Below, piece after piece: positions 1 through 42,616 of a DNA stretch of 48,906 nt; within the stretch, counting starts at the first letter, position 1, and every line of letters begins with the position of its first letter. The position numbers and the translations under genes were made by a program. The notes under the pieces were generated by a model. That model had not been told where the DNA came from and ran no database searches. It saw nothing but the letters and a program-made list of their open reading frames with translations. This stretch comes from a bacterium (GTDB lineage Bacteria; Calditrichota; Calditrichia; RBG-13-44-9), in contig CP070707.1 in NCBI GenBank assembly GCA_020350205.1, positions 3,774,491 through 3,823,396 of the forward strand, given 5' to 3'.

Positions 1-134
1 GTATCAATTTTTGAGTCGAAGGAATATTCCAGGTGATTATTGCCATACATTTGGATCTGACTATAAGAGGATTTTGCGGCGACTAAAATCAAAAGAAAAG
101 TAAAAATTACCAGGTATTTTTTTAAAATCAGCAT
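1..134 (-). CDS. Exported protein of unknown function, N-terminal fragment
   Basis: The minus strand opens with ATG at 134 and reads 44 codons without a stop to the window edge, so only the N-terminus is present. It begins with a Lys-Lys pair, then a hydrophobic stretch (LVIFTFLLILVAA) and a small-residue region ending near SSYSQ, which is a plausible Sec signal peptide. The mature part starts with a short polar segment containing YGNNHLEYSFD. It lies 50 bases downstream of the TlpA-like gene on the same strand and is probably the last seen member of that operon. The Shine-Dalgarno match is weak. I do not recognise the family from this fragment; it may be an outer-membrane barrel, but that is a guess. 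Confidence 0.6.
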   Translation of the reverse strand, partial: MLILKKYLVIFTFLLILVAAKSSYSQIQMYGNNHLEYSFDSKID

Positions 135-184
135 GTTTGGTCTCGCTTAACTAGTTCTCCTGATCAGTGGTGAATTTTTGAGTA

Positions 185-691
185 TTATTTATCAAACAGC
201 TGCTTTATTTCCTGGTCTACTTTCTTTTCATCTCCCATCCGGTATCCGACATGTGTATAGGTCACATTTCCATCATTATCGATGATTACAGTGAAAGGAG
301 GTACTTTGCTCTGGTAGAGGGTAATGACCTCATTATTCGTATCGAGCAAGACTTTAAAGGGATACTGGTGGGATTTTGCGAAACTTTTCACCCGACCGAC
401 AGTTTTCGGATCATCAATGGAAATTGCCAGAAATTGTACATCTTGCTCTGCATATTTTTTGTAGATTCGCTTCATCTGCTTTAATTCTTCGATACAGGGT
501 ACACACCAGGTTGCCCAAAAATTCATTACGATGGGTCCTTTACCAATATTTTCGGATAAGCGGTAATTCTCCCCATCCAGATCTTCCAACACAAAGTCCG
601 GAGCTTTGGTTAATTTGCCTCCCTCATCCTGTGCAAAAACAGGCCAGATGGCGAAGGCAATGATGGTCAGTGACAGGCAGAGTAATTTCAT
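185..691 (-). CDS. TlpA/ResA-like exported thioredoxin
   Basis: Predicted periplasmic thiol-disulfide oxidoreductase of the TlpA/ResA/AhpC-TSA class. I start it at the ATG at 691 because CCGGAGG lies just upstream and the product then begins with a signal peptide (MKLLCLSLTIIAFAIWPVFAQ); the longer open frame has no support. The mature protein has the thioredoxin active site WCVPC (Cys63, Cys66) after an NFWATW strand, and a cis-proline loop in KVPPFTVIID near residue 140. Length is 168 aa, usual for the family. It follows the PEGA/Omp28-like gene by 40 bases and precedes another exported protein gene, suggesting one operon. Likely role: reducing or oxidising cysteines of exported partners, possibly those encoded nearby. 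Confidence 0.9.
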   Translation of the reverse strand: MKLLCLSLTIIAFAIWPVFAQDEGGKLTKAPDFVLEDLDGENYRLSENIGKGPIVMNFWATWCVPCIEELKQMKRIYKKYAEQDVQFLAISIDDPKTVGRVKSFAKSHQYPFKVLLDTNNEVITLYQSKVPPFTVIIDNDGNVTYTHVGYRMGDEKKVDQEIKQLFDK

Positions 692-731
692 GTTTTCCTC
701 CGGTAGTTCAATCAAGACGACTGATAATATA

Positions 732-1943
732 TTAAAAGGGCGGATAGCGGGTCCATCCTGACTGCAGAATGGACTTATCCGATAAATTTTGAACAAATGC
801 AAGCACGGTTAAGTCTTCTCCCCATTCACTTTTTAAAATAAAAGAAAAATCGACCCGAAGGATTTGCTGGGGCGTCATTGTAACTGGAATTCCTGCTCCA
901 TCCGGATAAAGTGCTCTGAGGACCGCCTCAAAATGAGTCTGACCATTAGTTCCCGGCGGACTCGGATAATCTATTTCATCCTCAATCAAAGCAATCTGTA
1001 ATTGGTGACCGGCAGCAATACTTTGCAGGGCTTTCAGTTCCAGTTTCCCCTGGATCAGAGTATATGAACGATTCAGTTGGGTGAATGAAATAGTCAAAGC
1101 CGTATCCTGCTGCAATTGAGAATCAATCAGGTTGCGATAACTCTGTTCCGAGAGTGGATCCTGAACCAGCCGACCGTCTACAAATGCTCTCGGAATTGAA
1201 GGGGGCAGATAAAATTGCAGTCGACTATCATTATCAGGTTTCGCTGAAAGATACATCGGATCTGAAGGTGAAGGGAAATTTGCATGATATGCAAGAACAA
1301 CCAGCTGCACTGCCCCATAATCTCCGGCCAGATCATCGATTATCGCATCCGATTGAGGACAGGGTGGACAGCTGGTATTGGAAAAATGCTCCAGGATAAC
1401 AAAACGGCGGAGATCTTCCTGTAATCGATAATTCAGGATTACCTCGTCATTTGCCACGATCTCCAGAGTATCTAAAATCATGTCAAAGTTGCTTTTTAAC
1501 AGTTGCAGGAAATAAACACCCTCCGGTAATCCGTCCACTGTTAAGGGGGTAAAACCGAATTCTAATTTGTTAAGCAGTATCCGGGCGCTATCCGGTGTAG
1601 AATTGATGGTTAGATCACCAGATGGTGACGGAACGAGAGTAAAGGTTGCCGTGTCGGTTTGATCCTCTTCCAGAAAGACAACAATGGAGTCCACAGAACT
1701 TTTAAAGGTATTCAGAAAGAGGTGTAAAACCTGTCTTCCTGGGGTTACGTTTTGCAGAAGCGCGGGTGTTCTCTGACCCGTATCATGATAGTTGAGAAAT
1801 ATTCTGGCTGAGTCAGCATTTTGACTGACAACCAGAATACTCCCCTTCCCTTCTTCAAATTCTATCCCATCCTTGGTGGTGCAGGTTATCCCCATAAGGA
1901 GTGCCACGATACCAAGAATAAATAACCGGACTCGAAATAACAT
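732..1943 (-). CDS. PEGA-repeat, Omp28-like thioredoxin-fold exported protein (CPPC)
   Basis: I start this at the second ATG (1943) because GGAG lies seven bases before it. The N-terminus is a hydrophobic signal ending in GITC, a possible but non-canonical lipobox, so it may be a lipoprotein. Residues about 35-175 hold two PEGA-like repeats (typical phrase STPDSARILLNKLEFGFTP). Residues about 180-300 form an Omp28-like thioredoxin-type domain with HFSNTSCPPC (Cys192, Cys195), then LAYHANFPSPSDPMYL and a PRAFVDG segment. The C-terminal part is a beta-rich Omp28-like domain. It is a paralogue of the selenocysteine candidate at 2546-4597, aligning with Cys at the position where that gene has TGA. 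There is no T9SS sorting domain. Function beyond a likely thiol-redox or adhesion role is unknown. Confidence 0.8.
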   Translation of the reverse strand: MLFRVRLFILGIVALLMGITCTTKDGIEFEEGKGSILVVSQNADSARIFLNYHDTGQRTPALLQNVTPGRQVLHLFLNTFKSSVDSIVVFLEEDQTDTATFTLVPSPSGDLTINSTPDSARILLNKLEFGFTPLTVDGLPEGVYFLQLLKSNFDMILDTLEIVANDEVILNYRLQEDLRRFVILEHFSNTSCPPCPQSDAIIDDLAGDYGAVQLVVLAYHANFPSPSDPMYLSAKPDNDSRLQFYLPPSIPRAFVDGRLVQDPLSEQSYRNLIDSQLQQDTALTISFTQLNRSYTLIQGKLELKALQSIAAGHQLQIALIEDEIDYPSPPGTNGQTHFEAVLRALYPDGAGIPVTMTPQQILRVDFSFILKSEWGEDLTVLAFVQNLSDKSILQSGWTRYPPF

Positions 1944-2125
1944 CACACGCTCCTGCATTAAGCTTAATAAATATCACAAAAAGATAGATATATTGCCTGA
2001 ATTTTATCAAGGTATTTTTAAAATTTTCCATTTGTTTTCTTTGTTTTATAAATAAAATTAGAAAGATAATTACAACCTCCTGTAAAAATAATTTGTCAAT
2101 ATTCCTTTCTAAAATTTATTGTAGT

Positions 2126-2153
2126 GTTACTTTTTGAAGGCCCAAAAAGTAAC
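2126..2153. repeat. Intergenic hairpin (10-bp stem)
   Basis: GTTACTTTTT at 2126-2135 pairs perfectly with AAAAAGTAAC at 2144-2153 around an 8-base loop. It is followed by a second AAAAAGG run and a GGCG/CGCC pair (about 2167-2183). I recall similar sequence as a dispersed intergenic repeat in FCB-group genomes; that is from memory and unverified here. Confidence 0.5.
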
Positions 2154-2489
2154 CAAAAAGGCCTCCGGCGAAATAAACTCGCCCAGGTTAGGCAATAAAG
2201 TAATGCTTGTCAGAGCTCAAACAACATTTCGCCGACTGATAATTTTCATAACTTCTGCCTACTTAGGTGTAATCACAGTGGCAACACAAAACAATATTAT
2301 AATGTCTTATACATATTATATTTGGCGAAAAAATCATCTTAATCCCTGATGTTAATTCACACATTCATTCAATATGGTCTTTGCAGGTGGATTCGCCAAT
2401 TGAAACAGTCCAAAAGAATTTCAATTTTCTCTCCAGGGAAATAGGAAACCCCCATAATTGTTAGCGCTATTAAAGTCCCTAAAATAAAA
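2154..2489. other. Intergenic stretch without recognised gene
   Basis: AT-rich sequence between the hairpin repeat and the terminator of the selenocysteine-candidate gene. The short open frames here show no Shine-Dalgarno, no signal peptide and no recognisable domain. The promoter for the 1943-1 operon presumably lies at about 1944-2100, but I see no convincing box. Confidence 0.5.
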
Positions 2490-2523
2490 CAGGCCTTCTG
2501 ACAAAAAATCATCAGAAGGCCTG
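2490..2523 (-). terminator. Rho-independent terminator of the Sec-candidate gene
   Basis: CAGGCCTTCTGA (2490-2501) and TCAGAAGGCCTG (2512-2523) form a perfect 12-bp stem with a 10-base loop. On the minus strand the stem is followed by TTTTATTTT. It begins 22 bases after the stop codon of the 2546-4597 gene, as expected for its terminator. Confidence 0.88.
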
Positions 2524-2545
2524 AGATGTTTTTCATAATACCATT

Positions 2546-4597
2546 TTACCGGACGAGTACCATTTTCTGAACAGCTCTTTTCTCAGCACTTTTTAACTGA
2601 TAATAATACACCCCACTCGCGACCGGTTTTCCATAATCATCCCGCGCATTCCAGCTTACCTCATAATTGCCTGCTGCCTGAGGTTTATCCACCAACCTAC
2701 AGACCACTTGCCCCAAGCTATTAAATATCAGCAAAGTTGTTTGTTCCGCTTTTCGGTTTTCCAGACTGTATTTAATCACAGTTTCAGGATTAAAGGGATT
2801 GGGATAATTCTGGGCCAATTCAAATCGGTGAATGGTCATATCATTACCAGCAATCCCAACAGTACCTTCTTCGAACCAGCGGATACTCCGGGCCAGAATG
2901 GAATCCTTCACACCGACCACACTATTGGGGGCATCGGTAATCTGCTCAAAACCCAATCCCAGATAAACAACTTTGTAGTTACCGGCCGCAGCCCGTATTC
3001 CGGCGATATTAGCAGGATTGGTCATATAGGTAAAAATTGACGAAGCCTGCCCATCAAAGGGGGCGATCACGTCCGGAGAGCGGTCATAAATTCCCGAGAC
3101 AATCAGTCTTAATCCATCACCGATCAGATCACCCGTAACACCATAGAGTAAGAAAAAGAGTGAGGCATTACTTACAAAATTGGCATGCAGGTAATTATTG
3201 TAGAAGCTCTGGGCATGCTGACTGGTGGCATTGGTTCCAAAGATATCATTACCAATATCTTGACCCGTTATAAAGAGATTACCACCATTATCTAAATAAT
3301 TTTGCAAAACTGCCACTTCTTCTTGATAAAAAGCCTTTGTGCTACCACCTGCTGTCCATAAAATAATATTTACATTGTCCAAACTTAAATTTGGAGCTTT
3401 GAGCGCATCCCTCGTGACCATACCCTTCGATCCTAGGTATACACTATCAAGGGAATTTAGAAGGATTGATCCATACTCCATAATCCCTGCATCAACAATT
3501 AAAACATTAATGTCATTTGTGGTCACATAAAATTTTGAGGAAGTGGATAGACTAGGATTTGAAGTCAAACTAGTATTCACATCAATTGAAATACTGCCAC
3601 TATTTCCTTGGGGGTCAATAGATAATGTATATCTGAGGCTATCTAATCCCGGAAGGTTTACAGTTAAGCTTCCAGAATTTATGGGAATATTACCTTGGGG
3701 TGAGGTAGCGGAAATTATCCATCCAGAGGGAATTACACCACTCAATCCAAGATCCAAATTCATTTGGCCTTCAGACCGATTATATACATATCCTTCCAAA
3801 ATTGCCGTTTCAGAAACCTGAATAACTGCACTTGAATTAATTATTCCTGTTTCTATTCCAACCTCATTATAGCCTGCCTGTAATACTTCTTTATTCTGGT
3901 CATTTTGAATAAAAGCGACAACTGTTAGAAGATTTTCGAGATTTTGCAGGGGATGGAGATTGGTCAAATTAGTATTATAATTAAAATTGAAAGTCTGACT
4001 ATCCCCAACGGCAATATTAATTGGAGTACCCAAAGCGTCAGGTACCATATCTAACATAGACATGAGGTGGCGAGTAGTACCATTTGGGAATGGATTAGAA
4101 GCAACATATTCTTTTTCAACAACGGCTATCCTTAAATATTTTAAACCGCTTGGTGGTGAAGAGGTTGCCTTTACTTTCACCGATACAGAAGCGGTCGCCG
4201 GATCTCCTGTTACATCAATCTCATAAGGTGAACTAACGGTATACCGAGTATTAATATTGTTTGTCAAATAAGTTGACGAATATGAGGTGATATAAAGATT
4301 TCCATCTATAAAACCCCACGGAATTGCATTTACACCATAATAGTTTCTTCTAGCAGTATTTTCAGTTGGATTATTTAAATACCAAGGGTCGTTTCCGGGA
4401 GCAGGCCAATTCATGTGATACATAACTGCTACAACTTTTTCGGAACCCAAAGTTTCCAGCACCTGATCCAACACGGGATCAGCACTCGAACAAGCCGGTC
4501 AGGTCGTACTTGTAAGTTGTTCCACCAAGACAATTCTTTGAGAACCAAAAATTTGCATCGAAAATATCAAGATAGCGATTAAAATATTCTTATACAT
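2546..4597 (-). CDS. Candidate selenoprotein: Omp28-like T9SS cargo with UxxC motif
   Basis: The frame starts at ATG 4597, five bases after GGAGG, and encodes a signal peptide (MYKNILIAILIFSMQIFG). At codon 33 (4499-4501) it meets TGA inside EQLTSTT-(TGA)-PACSS, then stays open for 650 codons. The paralogue at 732-1943 has NTSCPPC at this position, so TGA replaces the first redox Cys (Sec33-x-x-Cys36). A SECIS-like hairpin follows. Domains: Omp28-like thioredoxin fold (about 20-145, with YHMNWPAPG and WGFIDG); a beta-rich Omp28 C-terminal part; a beta-sandwich (about 245-350); an alpha/beta glutamine-amidotransferase-like segment (about 370-500, with GGNLFITGQDIG); and a type A T9SS sorting domain (about 590-683, NYPNPFNP). 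Without recoding only a headless fragment from GTG 4474 would be made, with no ribosome site or signal. A recent Cys-to-stop mutation is the alternative. Confidence 0.82.
4463..4482 (-). promoter_or_regulatory. Candidate bacterial SECIS hairpin
   Basis: In the minus-strand mRNA, CUGAUCC pairs perfectly with GGAUCAG (7 bp) around the 6-base loop CGUGUU. The first loop base is the 24th after the UGA at 4501-4499, and G is the second loop base. This matches the bacterial SECIS rules as I know them: apical loop about 16-37 nt after UGA, at least one G in the first two loop positions, and a short stem. The hairpin lies within the coding sequence. The Cys-containing paralogue has no comparably strong stem at this position. 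SelB binding is inferred. Confidence 0.72.
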
Positions 4598-4726
4598 CAC
4601 ATCCTCCACTTAAATTGAAATTATATATTATTTACACTAACTGAAAGATTTCCATAATGAAGAGGATTTATTGATATATTATAAAGATACTGATGGTAAA
4701 GAAATTGTCAATTTTTAAAACTGGGA

Positions 4727-5479
4727 TTATTTCAACAGAAACATTTTTCCCATCAGAAATTGCTGTTCGGTACGTAATTCCACAAAATATATGCCGCTGG
4801 ATACCAGTCTCCCTAAGGCATCCCGACCGTCCCAACTCACCTGATGCAGACCGGGAGGCAGATTTCCATCAAAAATTCTTTTTATCCTTTGTCCAACCAC
4901 ATTATAAACCACGATGATGGTTCGCTGTGACGTAATGCCGCCAATTTCAAAGGGAATGTTGGTGGAGGGATTGAAGGGATTGGGATAATTTGTATATAAA
5001 TGATATTCCCCGGTAACGGACAGTGTGTAAGGACCCACATGAGTTGCCTGGGTACTGGCGTTGAAAGATTCGGTTAAGAATTCCGCCGGATTAGTCCAGT
5101 TTTCCACCCGAACAGTGATATCACCTTGTGTCGGGGATACTGATGTCTGTATATCAATGGCCAATTCCAACAGGCTGGATGCATTTAAAACCACAGGATC
5201 TGGAACTGTATCTAAAAATGGTGCATAACAAACTCCGGAAATTCCTCCCACACAAAAGGAACTGGTCCAGTTCACCGGAAGATTGTTAACCGTACGAATA
5301 ACCCGCAATTCAATCTGACTGGAGGTATTATTCTGTAAATAGGTGTGAAAAAGGATGGTATTCCCCGGCGTCCCTGTTTTGGAGGTGGTATCTGCCTGCC
5401 AGGAAAAACTTTGCCCGAAAAGCTGTATCTGAAATAGTAATATTCCCAGGATGAACAACTTTAGTAAGGTTACTTTCAT
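4727..5479 (-). CDS. Small T9SS-secreted protein with type A sorting domain
   Basis: A 250-aa exported protein. The N-terminus is a signal peptide (MKVTLLKLFILGILLFQIQLFGQ). Residues about 24-150 are a beta-rich region with two cysteines (SFCVGGISGVCYAP, about residues 76 and 84) that could form a disulfide. Residues about 160-250 are a type A T9SS C-terminal sorting domain with NYPNPFNP, a VSWDGRDALG turn and GIYFVELRT, ending in a basic-hydrophobic tail. The start has GGAG nine bases upstream. It lies 129 bases upstream of the selenocysteine candidate on the same strand, so the two may be co-transcribed. The mature domain is not one I recognise. Export by SprA and surface anchoring follow from the sorting domain. 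Confidence 0.85.
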   Translation of the reverse strand: MKVTLLKLFILGILLFQIQLFGQSFSWQADTTSKTGTPGNTILFHTYLQNNTSSQIELRVIRTVNNLPVNWTSSFCVGGISGVCYAPFLDTVPDPVVLNASSLLELAIDIQTSVSPTQGDITVRVENWTNPAEFLTESFNASTQATHVGPYTLSVTGEYHLYTNYPNPFNPSTNIPFEIGGITSQRTIIVVYNVVGQRIKRIFDGNLPPGLHQVSWDGRDALGRLVSSGIYFVELRTEQQFLMGKMFLLK

Positions 5480-25418: not shown

Positions 25419-25811
25419 ATGAATATATTACAAACTATTTTCAATTCAATTTTCATTTTTCTCATCTTATCGACACTTTCCTGCAGCACACCGGAGAGTC
25501 ATGAGATAAAACATGACTGGAGTATAATAGTCAAAGAACTTGAAGTTATTCTGGCTTCAGATGCGGCAGATAGTGTAAAAGCCTTTCAGATAAGCATCCT
25601 GTTTGAAAAAAATCAAATAGATGTTACTGACTACCGAGAATTCTATTATAAAAGTACTCAGGAAAAACCGCTGGAAAACCTGGATCTTTTAAAAGAGATT
25701 GAACAATTTATCGGGGAGGATATGAAAAAGGAAGCCCAGCAACAACGTAAAAGTTTTGATCAGGTTGATTATCGCTCCCTGAAGAAAGATGATCCTAAAG
25801 ATGTCAATTGA
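25419..25811 (+). CDS. Small predicted lipoprotein, unknown function
   Basis: A 130-aa protein with a lipoprotein-type signal (FIFLILSTLSC, Cys near residue 22) followed by a charged, mostly helical region. The mature part has EKNQIDVTDYREFYYKST and a basic, glutamine-rich tail (KKEAQQQRKSFDQ). I do not recognise the family; the middle loosely resembles DUF4296-like lipoproteins, and this is weak. There is no clear Shine-Dalgarno before the ATG. A strong palindromic terminator follows immediately, supporting a real transcript. Confidence 0.68.
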   Translation: MNILQTIFNSIFIFLILSTLSCSTPESHEIKHDWSIIVKELEVILASDAADSVKAFQISILFEKNQIDVTDYREFYYKSTQEKPLENLDLLKEIEQFIGEDMKKEAQQQRKSFDQVDYRSLKKDDPKDVN

Positions 25812-25839: not shown

Positions 25840-27363
25840 CTATTTCTTCTCCAAAATTTCGTTCATTCTATTTTTTGAAATTTGATCCACTTTTTCATGC
25901 AGCGAGCCGTTATGGCTGTCCATGGTCACGACCAGCGGAAAATTTTCCACCTCAAAATGCCACACCGCCTCAGGACTTCCAAACTGTTCCAGGTACACAC
26001 CTTTCACTTTTTTCACGCATTGAGCATAAATTTGTGCAGCACCGCCAATGGCATGAAAGTAGACCGAACCATATTTATTACACGCATCGAGGGTTTTCTT
26101 ACCCATTCCTCCCTTTCCGATCACACCTTTAAGACCAAATCGTCCGATCACCTCTCCCTGATAAGGCTCTTCACGGATCGAAGTGGTTGGGCCCGCAGCC
26201 ATTACTTTATATTCCCCGCCGTCTTCAACAATTACCGGACCACAATGATAGACAATTCCGTTTTGAATCACGTCCAGTTCACCCCCTTCGTACAAATAGC
26301 GATGAACAGCATCCCGACCAGTGTACATGTCGCCATTTAACAACACGACATCCCCTACCCGAAGCTCTCTGATTTGTTCCTCTGTAACCGGTGTATGAAG
26401 AACTTTTACATTTTTCGAGGGCATTTCCACATCTGGAAGTTTCGAATAATCAATTTCAAATTCGCCCGGGGTCTGGTACAACCATTCTTTCACCTTACTG
26501 TCTGCTGTCAAAACAACTCCGCGACGACGATATGCCCAGCACATATAAGCGATGCTGACAAAATAAGATGCCGGAAGTCGATTTAGATGGTCAATTTTAA
26601 TACCGCCCAGAGTAAATTTACCACCAAATCCCATGGGTCCGATCTCCAGCGTGTTAGCCTCCCGCATGATCTGTTCCTCTAGTTTGGCCAATTCAGGATC
26701 GGGATTGATATCATCCAGATTTCTCAAAAGTTGCTCTTTCGCATGTGCAAATCCGGTTGCCCGGTCTCCACCGATACAAACACCGAGAAAGCCGGGTCCG
26801 CAGCCCTTTCCCTGTGCCTGATAGATCGCATCCAGGATAACCGCGCGAACACCCCCCAGATCTCGGCCACATTTTTTACCATTGATTTGAGCAGGGAGCT
26901 TATACTGGGTACTCATATTTTCACATCCACCACCCTTTAAAATCAGGCGGACATCCACATCATCACTCCGGGATTGTTCAAAATGATAGACCGGGCTTCC
27001 CTTACCTAAATTATTGCCGGTGTTCTTTCCGTTCAGAGAATCAACCGAGTTTTGCCTGAGAAAACCTTTCTCAGTGCCGATGACAACTGCTTCTTCAGCC
27101 GCTTTCTGAAACATGAGTTGATCATAGCCTACAGGGCATTTAACATAAAAAGTGATCGTCCCGGTATCCTGACAAATTGGCAGCGACCTTTTCTTTGCGA
27201 GACCCACATTCTGCATAATCATATCCATGGCCATTTCAGCCATGGAAGCTTTTTCTTCCAGGTTTTTCCTCAGATTAATGACATTTTCGGCATCCGGAGG
27301 TAAATAGGCCGAGGTGCGTCGGACAAGTTCAAGTAAATTTTTTCGAAGTGCTTCATAACTCAT
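25840..27363 (-). CDS. Class I fumarate hydratase
   Basis: Iron-sulfur fumarase interconverting fumarate and malate in the TCA cycle. At 507 aa, alpha and beta parts are fused as in E. coli FumA/FumB. The probable [4Fe-4S] ligands are Cys64 (LPICQDTGT), Cys188 (GKGCGPG) and Cys275 (YMCWAYRR). Other conserved pieces are GGGCEN, GGDRATG, and in the beta part GDVVLLNGDMYTGRDA, GPTTSIR and GKGGMG. AGGAGG lies eight bases before the ATG. The cluster makes such enzymes oxygen-sensitive, which suits a low-oxygen lifestyle. Confidence 0.96.
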   Translation of the reverse strand: MSYEALRKNLLELVRRTSAYLPPDAENVINLRKNLEEKASMAEMAMDMIMQNVGLAKKRSLPICQDTGTITFYVKCPVGYDQLMFQKAAEEAVVIGTEKGFLRQNSVDSLNGKNTGNNLGKGSPVYHFEQSRSDDVDVRLILKGGGCENMSTQYKLPAQINGKKCGRDLGGVRAVILDAIYQAQGKGCGPGFLGVCIGGDRATGFAHAKEQLLRNLDDINPDPELAKLEEQIMREANTLEIGPMGFGGKFTLGGIKIDHLNRLPASYFVSIAYMCWAYRRRGVVLTADSKVKEWLYQTPGEFEIDYSKLPDVEMPSKNVKVLHTPVTEEQIRELRVGDVVLLNGDMYTGRDAVHRYLYEGGELDVIQNGIVYHCGPVIVEDGGEYKVMAAGPTTSIREEPYQGEVIGRFGLKGVIGKGGMGKKTLDACNKYGSVYFHAIGGAAQIYAQCVKKVKGVYLEQFGSPEAVWHFEVENFPLVVTMDSHNGSLHEKVDQISKNRMNEILEKK

Positions 27364-36409: not shown

Positions 36410-39400
36410 TTACCTGATAGCAATATTTACATTAATTCCAAATTCAAAGAAAGTGAATTTTCCAGTTCTCTTGGTATTATTCGAGGAATATTCAAAGAAC
36501 ATGGATCCATTTACTTTCTGACTAAACCGATAGGTCACCGAGGGTTTAATTTTAAATGAATCATTCTTGTCCTGTTCTATAAATTCATCCGAACCAAAAC
36601 CGGGTCTGCGGGCAAAGGAAACATCATTATTATTAGTTACGGTTAAACTAATCTGCATTTCATTTTTCAATTTCTTGTTTCTTAAAAAAGGTAGTGGAAT
36701 TCGGAAACCGGTGGATTTCGAGAAGGAAAATGTCACATCAAAACCCGAGCGGAGCGATTTATTATCCCCGCTGGTGGCGGTATAGGTAAAGGTGGATGCT
36801 TTGGTGAACCGGAAATTTCCAGTAACACCCCATTTTGTCGTAACACTCACCCCCAGGAAGGGTGAATAGGTATTGGAATACCCCCAGTTGGTACGGGTTT
36901 TTATATCCGCCGCATTTTCCAGAGTCTCATATCGAATTGTCTCGTTAGTTTTTCCGCTTCTGGCATGTTCGAGCTGAATTGAATTTGCATATTTTTTAAA
37001 AAAGAACCACTTTTCTACCCCGGACAACCTGAATTGCCAGTCCGGAACTAATTTATACCAGCCTTTCTGATTATTATCCGGATCGTCCCCCGTAAAGAAG
37101 AAGGTAGAAGAATTGTTCTCCGTTTTCAGCTGGTTATTCTGGGTTAAATCATTGGAATAGTTATACTTAAAAGAAGATGTTAAATTCTGGACAATATCAA
37201 AACTCAGATTCCCGGTCAGGATTTTTCCATTTTTAATTGAGGGTGCAATTTCCAGCTTCCCAAAGGTGGTATCAGTTCCCACTCCGATATCTTCGGTGAA
37301 TCCTAACTGGTACTTCAGTCCGGGCATTTCTGAAATATTGAAATAGCTGTAACTGTCCCGAATTTGGTAATCCAGTCCGACTGATTTCCAGGCGTTGAAA
37401 AACCGCCACACCAGTTTTAAGGGATTGAGTGCCGAGATCGCCTTCTTGGCGGATTGCTGTTGTTGCTGGTTTCCCTGAGGTTTTTCCTCTTCTCCCTCTT
37501 CTGGAGATTCTTCCTCTTCTGAACCTCCCAAATTACGGCGGGGACCCCCGCCAGTTCGTGACGATCCGGGTGGACCACCCCGTTGCTGAATCTGGGATTT
37601 TCTCGGATCATAAAACTTATTGGCCAACTGAGAAGGCTGAAGATTTACATTAAATCCTTTATTTGTTTGTAGCGTACTTGATTTCTCATTGGTTTTAATA
37701 TTCGCCAGATTATAATTAAATGAGGCATTATATTTAAAACTTTGACTCATCCAGCTAAACCACTTGGGATTATAATTGGCACTAAAATTTTGATTCATGA
37801 CTTTATCGGTCCCAAAATCAAAATTGGTGACAATTGATTTAACAAGTTCTACCGCCCGCAAGGAATCAAAACTGGCATCCGATTGGAAATCCCGGCTAAA
37901 ATTTAAGGTAATACTGGGAACCAGGGTATAACCGAGACCAAAACGGCGGGAGGCAGTCGTGCGAATCGTATTGGTGATGGTTTGTTCCAGACGGGCCTTC
38001 TGGGAGGTTTCATTATCCCTGATCGAAATGCTGGCATCAAATGAGGAGGGCATGTAGGAAACCTGCTCTTTCGCTAAAAGGCGAACAACAGGGCCCTTCC
38101 CGAGCCAGGAAAAGGGTCGGATGGTTTTGTCCCTTCCGAAGGGAACTCGCAGCTGCAGTTGTCCACTGACACTTTCATTATCATTTACATCATAGCGTTC
38201 ATCACTGGCCGTTTTTTCGCTCCAATCTACATCCAGCGTAAACATATCGATGGAATATTTCAGGTACCAGGGAGTTCTCTGATTTCCCTGCCGGGAAAGG
38301 GTTCCTCCCAGGGAGGTAGACTCCGATATCCGGGAATTTTCTTCCAGTTCAGGATCCAGTTCACCTAATCCGAAGAGTTGTTCCACTTTTGAAGACGGTT
38401 TATAATCAGTAAGTTTATCGGTATTGTAAAAATATTTAGGAATATTGCGGGTACGGACATATCCTCCCGAAATTGGAATCTGGAATCCCCAGGAAGTGGG
38501 CAAAAATTTATTTAGGCGCAGACTCATACGATAATCCTGGCGTTCGGTGGTACTCCCGCTTCCAAATTGATCCTCGATCCGGCGGAAATCGGCATCCACC
38601 ACTTCCCACTGGGCCCGAAAGGTAGCAACATCCGCCAGTGCAATATCGGTCATCAACCTCATCGCAGTACCTTTGTCCCGATATACATCCGTTACACGAA
38701 GCTCATCGATCCAGATTTCCATATCGTCCATGGGAAATTCACCCACATTCCTGGCACCGATGACCATAAAATTTATATTCCGCAGGTTGGGCTGCCCCAC
38801 CACCTTAAAATATTGGTTAGGATTTTCAGGATTCTGCCGGTAATAGACCACTGTGGTAGTATCTCCGATAAAAAACTCATCCGATTTGGTTTTTGCTACC
38901 TCGTCCAGAACTATATCAAAAAAATTGCGCTCATCCCAGCCGGGGAATATCTCACCACCTATTTCATAATAAATCCCTTCCGCCGGTCCGAAGCGCATGT
39001 AAAACTGCAGGGGTGAATCCTGCTGTGGAAGGCCATCGTTTCCATGGACGAATAATTTTAACTTTTTGTAATTGATGAGATCCATTTTTTCAAAAAGTTG
39101 TTTCTTTGCTTCCGCCCGTGCCCCAGTTTCCAACCGGCGCAGCTGCATTACCAGAGACTGTTCCTTGCTTACGGCTTTGGTGATCCGATCCTGGATACCT
39201 TTTACCCCCGGTGGAGGCGTATAGGACTCCGGTGGCTCTGCATTTTCTTCGGTGTTATATACAGTGATACTGAACAGGCTATCATTTAATTCGAAAGGAG
39301 AATTATCATTTGCAGCAACACCGATCTCTTCCCATTCATTCCCCACAAAATCAAACGTGGCAATACTAATCGCATGATCGATATTATCCTGCGGTAGATC

Positions 39401-42400
39401 GTTCATCCAAAGACGAACATTGTAAATCTCCTGGAAGGTGGTATCTGGATTACCTACCACCAGATCCGGGTCATACGCCCGGATGGGTATACGGTAAAGT
39501 CGCCATCCTTTGGGGGTACTTCCGTTGATATAGGGGTGCAGGCTGTCTGAAAGATCAAACGAATAGGTAAAATACTCATTGAGCAGATTTACTCCCCCGT
39601 TGTCATCCAGGTCTTCGGTATCGGGATATTTAGCGCCCTGCGCCTGTCCATTTCCCTCAGTCCCATTTATTTGCAAAAAGGGAGGATTGGTATTTTGCGG
39701 GGGCGCCCAGATATCGAACGGATCTGCATTGGGTTGGCCGGCGGGAATTCCATCCAGACCGACATCTTCGTCGAGATCCAATAGACCGTTTAAATTACGA
39801 TCTTCTGTATTCAGATTTCCCAGCGAGGGTTCGCCAAAGACATTTATGGTGTTCCGTCGAATGTAAAAATCCTCACTGATCTTTCCGATATCAATATTGA
39901 CATGGCCCACCGTCCCCTTTACCCACATTTCAATAAATTTAGTCTTCTTCTGATCGGGGTAATTAACCGTACTGCGCAGGATCCCGCCCCAGGCGACACT
40001 GTCTGATATATCTTCATTTTTCCATTGCAGAACAAGCACATTGGTGGTGGTTCCGGTTTGGGCATTGACATCCCGGTTCGGCCAGATGTCACGGATATCC
40101 ACCTGATTGTAGGGATTGTACCAGAACATACGCAGCCTATTGTCATCCATCCGGTACATGATCGTGCTGTCTCGCTGATCAATTTCAAAATCAATTCCCA
40201 GTCGCGGTATCCGGAACCGTGAAGGAATGGATGCGCGTGACCAGGTCCGATATACAATCCCCAGTGGTGTTGTCCGTTTGCTCCCTTCGAAATCGTCGAT
40301 ATAGGCCACACCCTGGTTTTCCCCTAAATCTTTCTCGTTAAAAGTATTAGGATTGGGATTAACCTGAGCGTATTCCGCTTCTATTTTTAGTCGGGATTCG
40401 GCAGAGGTTTCAACGATTGGCAAAACATCCAGCATCTTGGTCAGAAAATTGGGATTGAAATTCAGGGCAGTATTGACATCCCAGATAATATTTCTAACCG
40501 GCTCCTGTCCCAGTCGTACGCGTTGGTCAAGAGTGGATTTGTTTAGATACAAACCGGTCATACCAATAAAACCCCGCTCACCAAAAGAATATTCTATACG
40601 TCCGCCCAGCAGAGTTTTTTTGTCGAGCTGAAAAAGGCTACCCCTCTCATATTCAATTTCAACATTCGCGTCCGCCCGGCGGGCTTCAGGAGCCAGTATC
40701 TGAAGGGAACCACCAAAGTAATCGATCACATAATCTTTGTCCTTTACCAGCTCCCTACCATTCAGCTTTACAATTTCAGAGCCTTCCAGGACGTTAAAAC
40801 CCAAATTATAAGTTGATGAAATCGAACTGGTGGTAATTTCCAGTTGAAATTTATGTTGTTCCAGTTCTTCGGTGCGGTTCTTGATATTATAGATTTTTAC
40901 GTTCAGGGAAGTATCAATCGCAAAGGGACTATCCGGGACTGGGGCAAAAGGATTGGTTGAAGGAAATATCAAATATCCATTCGGCAAATCGAATATCGCA
41001 GAATTGTTAAGGTCAATTCTTTTATCCCCGGTTTCAGTAATATTTCCCTGCTCATCCAGACGATCCAAACCCATCAAATAAATAAACGCCTTAGTCTCCC
41101 CCACAGGTTGCACATCCACATCCTCTCCGGTCTTGGTGTAGAGGATATTCACATTGAAGCCTTCTTTGGGAATATTGGAAGCACCCAGATTGTAGACATT
41201 CCGCATGGCCAGTTTCCAGGTAGGATATTCGGGTTTTGATCCCTGGGCCCGAACCATTTTTAATAAAACCGTTGCAGAGCTATCCGTCACTTCATTAAAC
41301 AAAAGACCTTTTTTGGTCCCATCCTGTAATTGATAGGCAATGGCGACTACATCGTTTTCGTTCACAGTCTGGTTTAACCAGAAATATCCTTTATATTCAT
41401 CATAATAATATTCCGTCTCATCCAGCCGCCGGAAGAAACCCTTTTCTTTATACCCGCTGACCACCTGCAAGGTATCCAGGTTGTTTATGTCATAGTCATC
41501 GGGATCCAGCACAGCCCAACCCTGGCGGGTGCTGGAATCGGTGGTTCTGGCGGTAATCCAGACATCCAGTTGGGAAACTTTCCTGTTCTGATTAGGAATA
41601 ATCCAGCGCATATTGCTGAGATCGAATCCGTTTTCATAGTAATCTGCCCACTCATCATCGAGGAAGAAGAAACGTTCCCGAACATATTCATAGTCTTTTA
41701 TGCGCACCGTATTCTCAGCCGCACCGCCGGTCTTGGTCAGTTTCTGTTTTTCACCCCGCTGCAAACTGGCAATTCCCACAAAGCTAAGGTTTCCCACCTG
41801 CATGGCAGTCTTGAGGCCAAACAAACCCTGACTTTTAGAACTGGCGGATACATAATTCGTACTGGGGAGAGCCAGAGACACATTACCCGCTTCAATAGTC
41901 TGGATGATCTCATCTTCATCACCTGTATAGGTCAAACGAAGGGTATTTTCAAAATCGAAGGTTGCCTCACTGTTCTGATCCACCTTCACACTGACTTTAT
42001 CACCGACTTTCCCTTCGACCTGGAATTGCTGGGTTTGTTTGAAACGGGGACTGAAATTACCTCGTTGTTCAAAAGAGGAAACAGCGGAACCTTCCCGGCT
42101 CTCCGATCTTCCGGCAAGTTCGAAGGAAATATTGCCGGTAACGCGGAGCCCCACCCTATCTCCACCAAAGATCCTTTTAAAAGCTTTACTTTTTATTTTA
42201 ACAGGAATATTCAGCTCGATGCCGCCCGCGCCGGCCTCTTTTTCCTTCCCTACATTTTTTATCACAGTTTTACGCCAGATCTGCTGATTTTCATACTGCA
42301 GTTTCTGCTGGCTGTAATACTCCAGATTCATGGCAATAGGTAGGCGGTAATCTTTATTGTACAGGGTTTCCCGGATTTGAATCACTTCCTGAGTACTATC

Positions 42401-42616
42401 GACGGTTACTTGCCGCTTGAATTGGCCAAGCTGCATTTTTAGAAGCGTCGAATCCGCAAAATACCGCGATAAACCCGGGTATTCAGGTTCAAATAAGGGG
42501 ACAACCCCGGGGGGATGTTGAGGAGGGTTCAATCCCTGAGCAGCCACACCGGTTATGGTTATCATCACCAGTGCAAAGACTTTTCGAAGGTGCGATTGTA
42601 CAGACTTCAAAATCAA
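36410..42616 (-). CDS. sprA: T9SS outer-membrane translocon SprA/Sov
   Basis: A 2068-aa giant outer-membrane barrel, the translocation channel of the type IX secretion system. After a signal (VFALVMITITGVAAQG) it has the SprA N-terminal region (LPIAMNLEYYSQQKLQ, and DRVGLRVTGNISFELAGRS). The middle has the family features NENDVVAIAYQ, YIDDFEGSKRTTPLG, and an acidic calcium-like loop (DRNLNGLLDLDEDVGLDG). The C-terminal thousand residues are alternating strands with many aromatics. A low-complexity linker (Gly/Pro, then Glu, then Gln; about 37440-37600) interrupts the C-terminal region. The start is TTG (42614-42616) after AAGGA. Usual length for SprA is 2,000-2,500 aa. It exports proteins with type A sorting domains, three of which are in this window. 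Confidence 0.95.
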   Translation of the reverse strand: MILKSVQSHLRKVFALVMITITGVAAQGLNPPQHPPGVVPLFEPEYPGLSRYFADSTLLKMQLGQFKRQVTVDSTQEVIQIRETLYNKDYRLPIAMNLEYYSQQKLQYENQQIWRKTVIKNVGKEKEAGAGGIELNIPVKIKSKAFKRIFGGDRVGLRVTGNISFELAGRSESREGSAVSSFEQRGNFSPRFKQTQQFQVEGKVGDKVSVKVDQNSEATFDFENTLRLTYTGDEDEIIQTIEAGNVSLALPSTNYVSASSKSQGLFGLKTAMQVGNLSFVGIASLQRGEKQKLTKTGGAAENTVRIKDYEYVRERFFFLDDEWADYYENGFDLSNMRWIIPNQNRKVSQLDVWITARTTDSSTRQGWAVLDPDDYDINNLDTLQVVSGYKEKGFFRRLDETEYYYDEYKGYFWLNQTVNENDVVAIAYQLQDGTKKGLLFNEVTDSSATVLLKMVRAQGSKPEYPTWKLAMRNVYNLGASNIPKEGFNVNILYTKTGEDVDVQPVGETKAFIYLMGLDRLDEQGNITETGDKRIDLNNSAIFDLPNGYLIFPSTNPFAPVPDSPFAIDTSLNVKIYNIKNRTEELEQHKFQLEITTSSISSTYNLGFNVLEGSEIVKLNGRELVKDKDYVIDYFGGSLQILAPEARRADANVEIEYERGSLFQLDKKTLLGGRIEYSFGERGFIGMTGLYLNKSTLDQRVRLGQEPVRNIIWDVNTALNFNPNFLTKMLDVLPIVETSAESRLKIEAEYAQVNPNPNTFNEKDLGENQGVAYIDDFEGSKRTTPLGIVYRTWSRASIPSRFRIPRLGIDFEIDQRDSTIMYRMDDNRLRMFWYNPYNQVDIRDIWPNRDVNAQTGTTTNVLVLQWKNEDISDSVAWGGILRSTVNYPDQKKTKFIEMWVKGTVGHVNIDIGKISEDFYIRRNTINVFGEPSLGNLNTEDRNLNGLLDLDEDVGLDGIPAGQPNADPFDIWAPPQNTNPPFLQINGTEGNGQAQGAKYPDTEDLDDNGGVNLLNEYFTYSFDLSDSLHPYINGSTPKGWRLYRIPIRAYDPDLVVGNPDTTFQEIYNVRLWMNDLPQDNIDHAISIATFDFVGNEWEEIGVAANDNSPFELNDSLFSITVYNTEENAEPPESYTPPPGVKGIQDRITKAVSKEQSLVMQLRRLETGARAEAKKQLFEKMDLINYKKLKLFVHGNDGLPQQDSPLQFYMRFGPAEGIYYEIGGEIFPGWDERNFFDIVLDEVAKTKSDEFFIGDTTTVVYYRQNPENPNQYFKVVGQPNLRNINFMVIGARNVGEFPMDDMEIWIDELRVTDVYRDKGTAMRLMTDIALADVATFRAQWEVVDADFRRIEDQFGSGSTTERQDYRMSLRLNKFLPTSWGFQIPISGGYVRTRNIPKYFYNTDKLTDYKPSSKVEQLFGLGELDPELEENSRISESTSLGGTLSRQGNQRTPWYLKYSIDMFTLDVDWSEKTASDERYDVNDNESVSGQLQLRVPFGRDKTIRPFSWLGKGPVVRLLAKEQVSYMPSSFDASISIRDNETSQKARLEQTITNTIRTTASRRFGLGYTLVPSITLNFSRDFQSDASFDSLRAVELVKSIVTNFDFGTDKVMNQNFSANYNPKWFSWMSQSFKYNASFNYNLANIKTNEKSSTLQTNKGFNVNLQPSQLANKFYDPRKSQIQQRGGPPGSSRTGGGPRRNLGGSEEEESPEEGEEEKPQGNQQQQQSAKKAISALNPLKLVWRFFNAWKSVGLDYQIRDSYSYFNISEMPGLKYQLGFTEDIGVGTDTTFGKLEIAPSIKNGKILTGNLSFDIVQNLTSSFKYNYSNDLTQNNQLKTENNSSTFFFTGDDPDNNQKGWYKLVPDWQFRLSGVEKWFFFKKYANSIQLEHARSGKTNETIRYETLENAADIKTRTNWGYSNTYSPFLGVSVTTKWGVTGNFRFTKASTFTYTATSGDNKSLRSGFDVTFSFSKSTGFRIPLPFLRNKKLKNEMQISLTVTNNNDVSFARRPGFGSDEFIEQDKNDSFKIKPSVTYRFSQKVNGSMFFEYSSNNTKRTGKFTFFEFGINVNIAIR

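Follow-up and report, generated by a model that had tools for sequence, protein, structure and literature searches.

Is a TGA codon inside an otherwise open Omp28-type gene read as selenocysteine (Sec, U), and if so, what kind of protein does it serve? The question is raised by a gene in a 48,906-nucleotide stretch of contig CP070707.1 (assembly GCA_020350205.1, 3,774,491 to 3,823,396), from a bacterium of the phylum Calditrichota whose genome forms a single contig (4,063,086 bases). The whole stretch is called the window here, and all positions below are window positions unless another contig is named. A first-pass annotation of the window had proposed that the gene encodes a candidate selenoprotein, in which Sec takes the place of the first redox cysteine (Cys) of an Omp28-like cargo protein of the type IX secretion system (T9SS). 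Our analysis makes it highly probable that the TGA, codon 33 of the gene, is read as Sec by the SelABCD machinery, and that the product is an Omp28-type protein whose predicted thioredoxin fold would employ a Sec33-Cys36 redox pair at the cell surface. The elements at issue are as follows.

2546–4597, minus strand: Omp28-type candidate selenoprotein gene, 683 amino acids with U33 (translation with TGA as U; Pfam Omp28)
4499–4501, minus strand: in-frame TGA, predicted Sec codon 33 (homologous TGA in genomes G031, G029 and G038; Cys in G030 and G034)
4490–4492, minus strand: Cys36 codon, predicted resolving partner in a UxxC motif
4603–4607, minus strand: GGAGG, resembling a ribosome-binding site, 5 nucleotides upstream of the ATG
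4544–4597, minus strand: signal-peptide-like N terminus, approximately residues 1–18 (by eye from the sequence; helix 2–17 in the structure model)

The minus-strand frame from 4597 to 2546 comprises 683 codons, and the TGA at codon 33 is its sole interruption. This codon is in frame with a 642-codon open reading frame (ORF) that begins with GTG (2546–4474), and the frame reaches upstream to an ATG at 4595–4597. The first-pass description of the site, a TGA within TSTT-(TGA)-PACSS behind an upstream ATG and GGAGG, is confirmed by the sequence. The fuller context is QLTSTT-U-PACSS, and the preceding stretch, QRIVLVEQLTSTT, follows a hydrophobic signal-like segment. When the window was scanned for TGA codons with Cys at +3 or −3, requiring an open frame of 25 codons before the TGA and 80 after it, codon 33 was the only site to match. 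The same scan of seven related loci returned three homologous sites and four unrelated matches. As a result, the pattern by itself proves little, and it is homology that carries the case. A second recoding candidate in the window, ORF 25419–25811, is small and lipoprotein-like and ends in TGA with 106 open codons beyond it. It was rejected, its continuation being mostly antisense to ORF 25840–27363 and no redox motif being seen around its TGA.

Homologues with either TGA or Cys at codon 33, which the first-pass annotation had suggested seeking, were both found: TGA in three other genomes and Cys in sister genes. A domain search over 40 genomes of the phylum gave 27 matches in 16 genomes. Three of the aligned matches have TGA at the site (the present gene, G031 at 58% identity and G029 at 44%) and the other 24 have Cys, while a Cys lies three residues downstream in all 27. 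In G030, which shares its genus and its gene order with G031, the codon is TGC. In a larger alignment of 40 rows, 32 cover the site, with TGA in 3 and Cys in 29. Because TGA stands where relatives encode the first Cys of a CxxC motif, the product is likely to be a selenium-containing redox protein, with predicted export to the surface. The Cys paralogue at 732–1943 fits the earlier description: it is 28% identical to the present protein over 230 amino acids (E 6e-26), has NTSCPPC (CPPC) opposite UPAC, and shares the quoted conserved segments (YHMNWPAPG/YHANFPSP; FIDG/FVDG).

The fourth TGA form is in G038, which belongs to the same genus as the present genome and was not recovered by the first domain search. 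At its locus (L078, G038:C3 6584-8668), an ORF occupies the same slot, between the gene for a small first-gene protein and the PEGA-Omp28 gene. The later part of this ORF shares 48% identity with residues 271–577 of the present protein (the ThuA-like/T9SS tail), and its thioredoxin/Omp28 domain is very divergent, with the motif VN-TGA-PYC (UPYC). One domain appears to have been exchanged for another here, with a predicted Sec in the corresponding position. When the 40 genomes were searched with the G038 domain, matches were obtained in 7, G038 included. The one close relative, G034 (56%), has Cys there (TWCQWC). The count is thus four TGA forms plus two sister Cys forms, divided between two branches, and every row that covers the site in the 27-row, 40-row and G038-type alignments has TGA or Cys.

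These homologues bear on whether the TGA is simply a nonsense mutation or a miscalled base, with the upstream part of a pseudogene decaying behind it. The present species is represented by one assembly, which leaves some room for such an error. Against this, three other assemblies of the order also have TGA at this codon, at identities of 58% or less, and their aligned domains contain no further stop; the frame, start codon and signal-like segment are retained in all of them. Upstream decay in close relatives, named by the first-pass annotation as a sign that its proposal was wrong, is not seen. We consider a pseudogene or assembly error very improbable.

Predicted proteins extend the comparison. 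Protein searches add ten that do not cover the site: eight begin 8–13 residues past it and, as judged by eye, P0004 begins at about that point and P0005 approximately twenty residues past. The present gene itself appears in the protein database as a 573-residue fragment, P0033. In a tree of 42 domains, one clade with support of 100/100 unites the ten late-start proteins with the present protein, G031, G029 and the Cys rows G030 and P0035; two changes between the TGA or truncated state and Cys are enough on this tree. P0036 is nearly identical to the G031 protein, whose DNA has the TGA, and begins equally late. Late predicted starts therefore most likely mark TGA, which would apply to the ten proteins. 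P0060 also starts past the site and was left out of the alignment and tree; P0046, P0056 and P0061 begin with other sequence and were not used as rows, nor was the fragment P0033.

Such starts could alternatively be genuine. Translation would then begin internally, at the GTG at 4474 or later, giving a shorter protein without UGA, and the upstream frame would be a leader or regulator. Gene callers do pick such starts, both here (P0033) and in relatives (P0032, P0034, P0036–P0040). However, such a product would keep the T9SS sorting domain but have neither the signal peptide nor either redox residue. In addition, protein-level conservation of the upstream residues is seen in G029, G030 and G031 and, in broad terms, in G038, and the GGAGG precedes the upstream ATG. 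An internal start is accordingly judged improbable.

The genome has the means to insert Sec. All four genes that the first-pass annotation had proposed to look for (selA, selB, selC, selD) were found. The tRNA-Sec scores 72.3 bits against a cut-off of 47 and is called SeC, anticodon tca, by ARAGORN. SelA matches at 545.4 bits, SelB at 365.4 bits and SelD at 380.7 bits (C1:3972077-3973000, minus strand; L017); the SelB match starts 109 bases after that of SelA ends. Across the phylum set, tRNA-Sec scores 68–73 bits in all six genomes with TGA forms or sister Cys forms. It is over the cut-off in 27 of the 40 genomes, with more than 64 bits in 25; the other two matches, at 47–49 bits, may be other tRNAs. 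As a separate observation, the SelD frame of the present genome contains a single TGA (CAG-U-ASKIG), which makes this protein a further candidate selenoprotein. A second SelD match (L018, C1:1231798-1232109) reaches 155 bits, over the cut-off, and covers only the first 107 model positions; it sits inside a 554-residue open frame and is perhaps a fusion or partial paralogue.

UGA also retains its ordinary meaning. Among the 65 ORFs of the window, 35 were chosen as likely genes, and these end in TGA in 9 cases, TAA in 20 and TAG in 6. The nine include the BatA-like gene (Pfam BatA), in agreement with the first-pass observation that UGA is a stop elsewhere. Release factor 2 (RF2, prfB) is present at 525.1 bits. 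Together, RF2 and the TGA-ending ORFs indicate that UGA also serves as a stop. They argue against genome-wide reassignment or readthrough of UGA as another amino acid (e.g. Trp or Gly), as do the full Sec machinery and the Cys found in 24 of 24 phylum rows without TGA. The frame that stays open across the TGA and the Trp at the site in a distant relative, P0177, would suit reassignment, which we nevertheless regard as extremely improbable.

Several observations weigh against the Sec interpretation. No domain orthologue was found in G039 (same genus) or in G036 and G037 (same family), genomes that are incomplete or fragmented. P0177, from a more distant set, has Trp for the first Cys of CxxC (TGFWWSYCPG), showing that this Cys is not strictly kept there. 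The ten late-start proteins are known as protein predictions only, and P0003 among them is labelled partial. The remaining points concern the Sec insertion sequence (SECIS), for which the following candidate was examined.

4455–4489, minus strand: SECIS-like hairpin, −11.7 kcal/mol, loop GUGUU (weak evidence)

This hairpin fits the limits for bacterial SECIS elements (bSECIS), with its energy of −11.7 kcal/mol, a loop starting 24 nucleotides after UGA, and G first in the loop; an energy of at most −7.5 kcal/mol is the limit given in the legend of Fig. 2 of PMC13188914. It is the only one of the four TGA sites to pass this limit (−11.7, −6.0, −4.5 and −6.2 kcal/mol). The TGA site of SelD in the same genome also fails (−6.6 kcal/mol), and a more stable hairpin is given by the Cys form of G030 (−13.9 kcal/mol), with none in the Cys form of G034. 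Out of 300 synonymous recodings of each site, 33, 37, 134 and 0 are equally good for the four TGA sites in the same order, and 33 for SelD; only the G038 site is clearly better than its recodings. Among control codons in the window, 8 of the 360 chosen at random and 2 of the 53 for Cys do as well as the present site. Since neither the controls nor the recodings discriminate, the SECIS was dropped as proof and is not counted as support; it is consistent with the Sec reading, as weak evidence. The candidate selenoprotein is nonetheless strongly supported by the Sec machinery, the exchange of TGA and Cys across genomes, and the placement of the site in a thioredoxin fold. Pseudogenization, sequencing error and a reassigned code are unlikely.

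The domain structure of the protein indicates its probable location and chemistry.

3860–4543, minus strand: thioredoxin-fold/Omp28 domain, residues 19–246 (Pfam and structure model)
2864–3508, minus strand: ThuA/class I amidotransferase-like domain, residues 364–578
2558–2806, minus strand: T9SS type A C-terminal sorting domain, residues 598–680 (TIGR04183, 35.2 bits; cut-off 23)
36410–42616, minus strand: SprA, outer-membrane translocon of the T9SS (TIGR04189, 301, 278 and 204 bits in three stretches; Pfam SprA_N)

Pfam Omp28 (PF11551) matches residues 84–246 at 36.4 bits, above its gathering cut-off of 34.9. In an AlphaFold2 model, residue 33 begins a thioredoxin-fold helix. The best solved structure match of the N-terminal region is HBP35 of Porphyromonas gingivalis (PDB 5y1a), which has the same fold; 5y1a is absent from the five matches of a sequence search with query A1. 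The VIA-align structure list is mainly of residues 252–592, and further thioredoxin matches besides 5y1a and 2axo may be hidden. The T9SS machinery is represented by the genes for SprA and for PorU (787.7 bits), the latter elsewhere in the genome. Together with the sorting-domain model over its cut-off, these genes support the earlier proposal that the protein is a predicted T9SS type A cargo. A search of a plasmid collection gave one match, to the T9SS tail only.

HBP35 is described as a thioredoxin-active surface protein (PMC2907840) secreted by the Por system (PMC3120885). It has two Cys and binds hemin, whereas the present protein has a predicted Sec-Cys pair and an added ThuA-like domain. 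This comparison raises the possibility of a real selenoprotein that is periplasmic, or that serves haem binding or adhesion instead of thiol chemistry. The hemin binding of HBP35, reported to lie outside its two active-site Cys (PMC2907840), is in line with such a role, and the T9SS tail here is assigned by a sequence model. However, redox chemistry is indicated by the 27 phylum rows, all of which have TGA or Cys at 33 and Cys at 36, and we hold these alternative roles to be unlikely. Other Omp28 proteins (PF11551, NF033782), including the paralogue, share the thioredoxin/Omp28 domain with CxxC at the homologous place. They differ in being Cys-only, and the paralogue carries PEGA domains, with no T9SS tail found in it. 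Proteins of the DUF1223 type (PDB 2axo, Agrobacterium Atu2684) are only 222–270 residues long and lack the added domains.

The first-pass annotation knew of no described Omp28-family selenoprotein, and in this it was wrong. The NCBIfam model NF045500 (Omp28_seleno) is named 'Omp28-related selenoprotein' and is listed in section 7 and Table 1 of a 2026 review as 'Hypothetical protein GOS_C', a UxxC selenoprotein (PMC13188914). GOS_C was reported in a 2008 ocean survey, with 74 sequences and a thioredoxin-like fold (PMC2398784). The present protein resembles this family in being Omp28-related, with a thioredoxin-like fold and one predicted Sec in UxxC (U33-PA-C36). It scores 46.1 bits against NF045500, below the cut-off of 200, in a weak match that spans residues 19–243 and includes the site; the first 45 residues alone give no match to the model. 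Cys-only Omp28 proteins score higher (L055, 102 bits; P0011, 70; P0082, 73.5), and the cut-off is reached in none of the 40 phylum genomes. A protein search from the nearest kin of NF045500 (A3) gave 185 matches, of which 120 were listed; 36 of those and three earlier proteins were scanned. All 39 match the model (best E 1.5e-28; 73.5 bits for the first), scores taken as below the cut-off. By sequence, then, the protein appears similar to the NF045500 family in how it works, but is no member by the family's model. Sec may have arisen separately in the two families, the Sec site of true GOS_C members being outside the alignments used here. In the open-licence literature, nothing was found pairing Omp28 with selenoprotein or Calditrichaeota with selenocysteine. 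Searches there for selenoprotein with type IX secretion, Calditrichota with selenoprotein, and Caldithrix with selenocysteine gave only unrelated matches, as judged from their listing, and the review PMC13188914 was the only literature found on NF045500.

The gene is part of a conserved neighbourhood, with these further members in the window.

4727–5479, minus strand: small protein with FlgD-Ig tail, first gene of the neighbourhood (T9SS-tail model 22.2 bits, below the cut-off of 27)
732–1943, minus strand: Cys paralogue, PEGA and Omp28-like protein with CPPC (Omp28 34.1 bits, just below the cut-off of 34.9)
185–691, minus strand: TlpA-like thioredoxin with signal-like start and CVPC (AhpC-TSA 96.7 bits)
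1–134, minus strand: gene start cut by the window edge (DUF6029 gene in the same slot in L067 and L078)

The order is thus the small first-gene protein, Omp28-Sec, PEGA-Omp28, TlpA-like thioredoxin and DUF6029, the last slot being judged here by its start only. The same order occurs in L067 (G031) and in L068 (G030), which has the Cys form; G038 shares it as well, but with the other domain. In L080 (G035) and L081 (G032), the slot is without a gene of the Omp28-Sec type. The neighbourhood at 1–5479, conserved in several genomes of the taxonomic order, is possibly a surface redox relay. Elsewhere in the window, the 604-residue product of 18209–20023 matches the bacterial Ig model Big_7 in five stretches (339 bits).

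In the proposed mechanism, SelABCD would insert Sec at UGA codon 33, the signal peptide would be cleaved, and the T9SS would export the protein to the cell surface. There it may act as a thiol-disulfide reductase or isomerase, by analogy with the activity measured for the P. gingivalis protein HBP35; Sec33 would attack and Cys36 would resolve. Electrons would come from the neighbouring TlpA-like thioredoxin and PEGA-Omp28 protein. When selenium is lacking, translation would end after 32 residues.

A broader interpretation is, on balance, somewhat favoured: that this is a Sec thioredoxin exported by T9SS, and that two species of one genus have Sec at the homologous active-site codon of divergent Omp28 domains, which occupy one operon slot and share the ThuA-like/T9SS tail. 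On this view, Sec either persisted across a domain swap or was acquired on two occasions, and would be an option besides Cys in a surface redox relay made up of the TlpA-like thioredoxin, the PEGA-Omp28 protein and the DUF6029 protein. The selenoprotein would be distinct from the GOS_C lineage. What is new is a candidate subfamily of Omp28-related selenoproteins missed by the existing model and cut short by gene callers, and context is gained for GOS_C, a family that was first listed as hypothetical. Should the reading be confirmed, the T9SS would carry a selenoprotein to the cell surface, where the reactivity of Sec meets the outside medium. G031 (predicted Sec) and G030 (Cys), from one genus, form a natural pair for asking what advantage Sec gives a surface thioredoxin.
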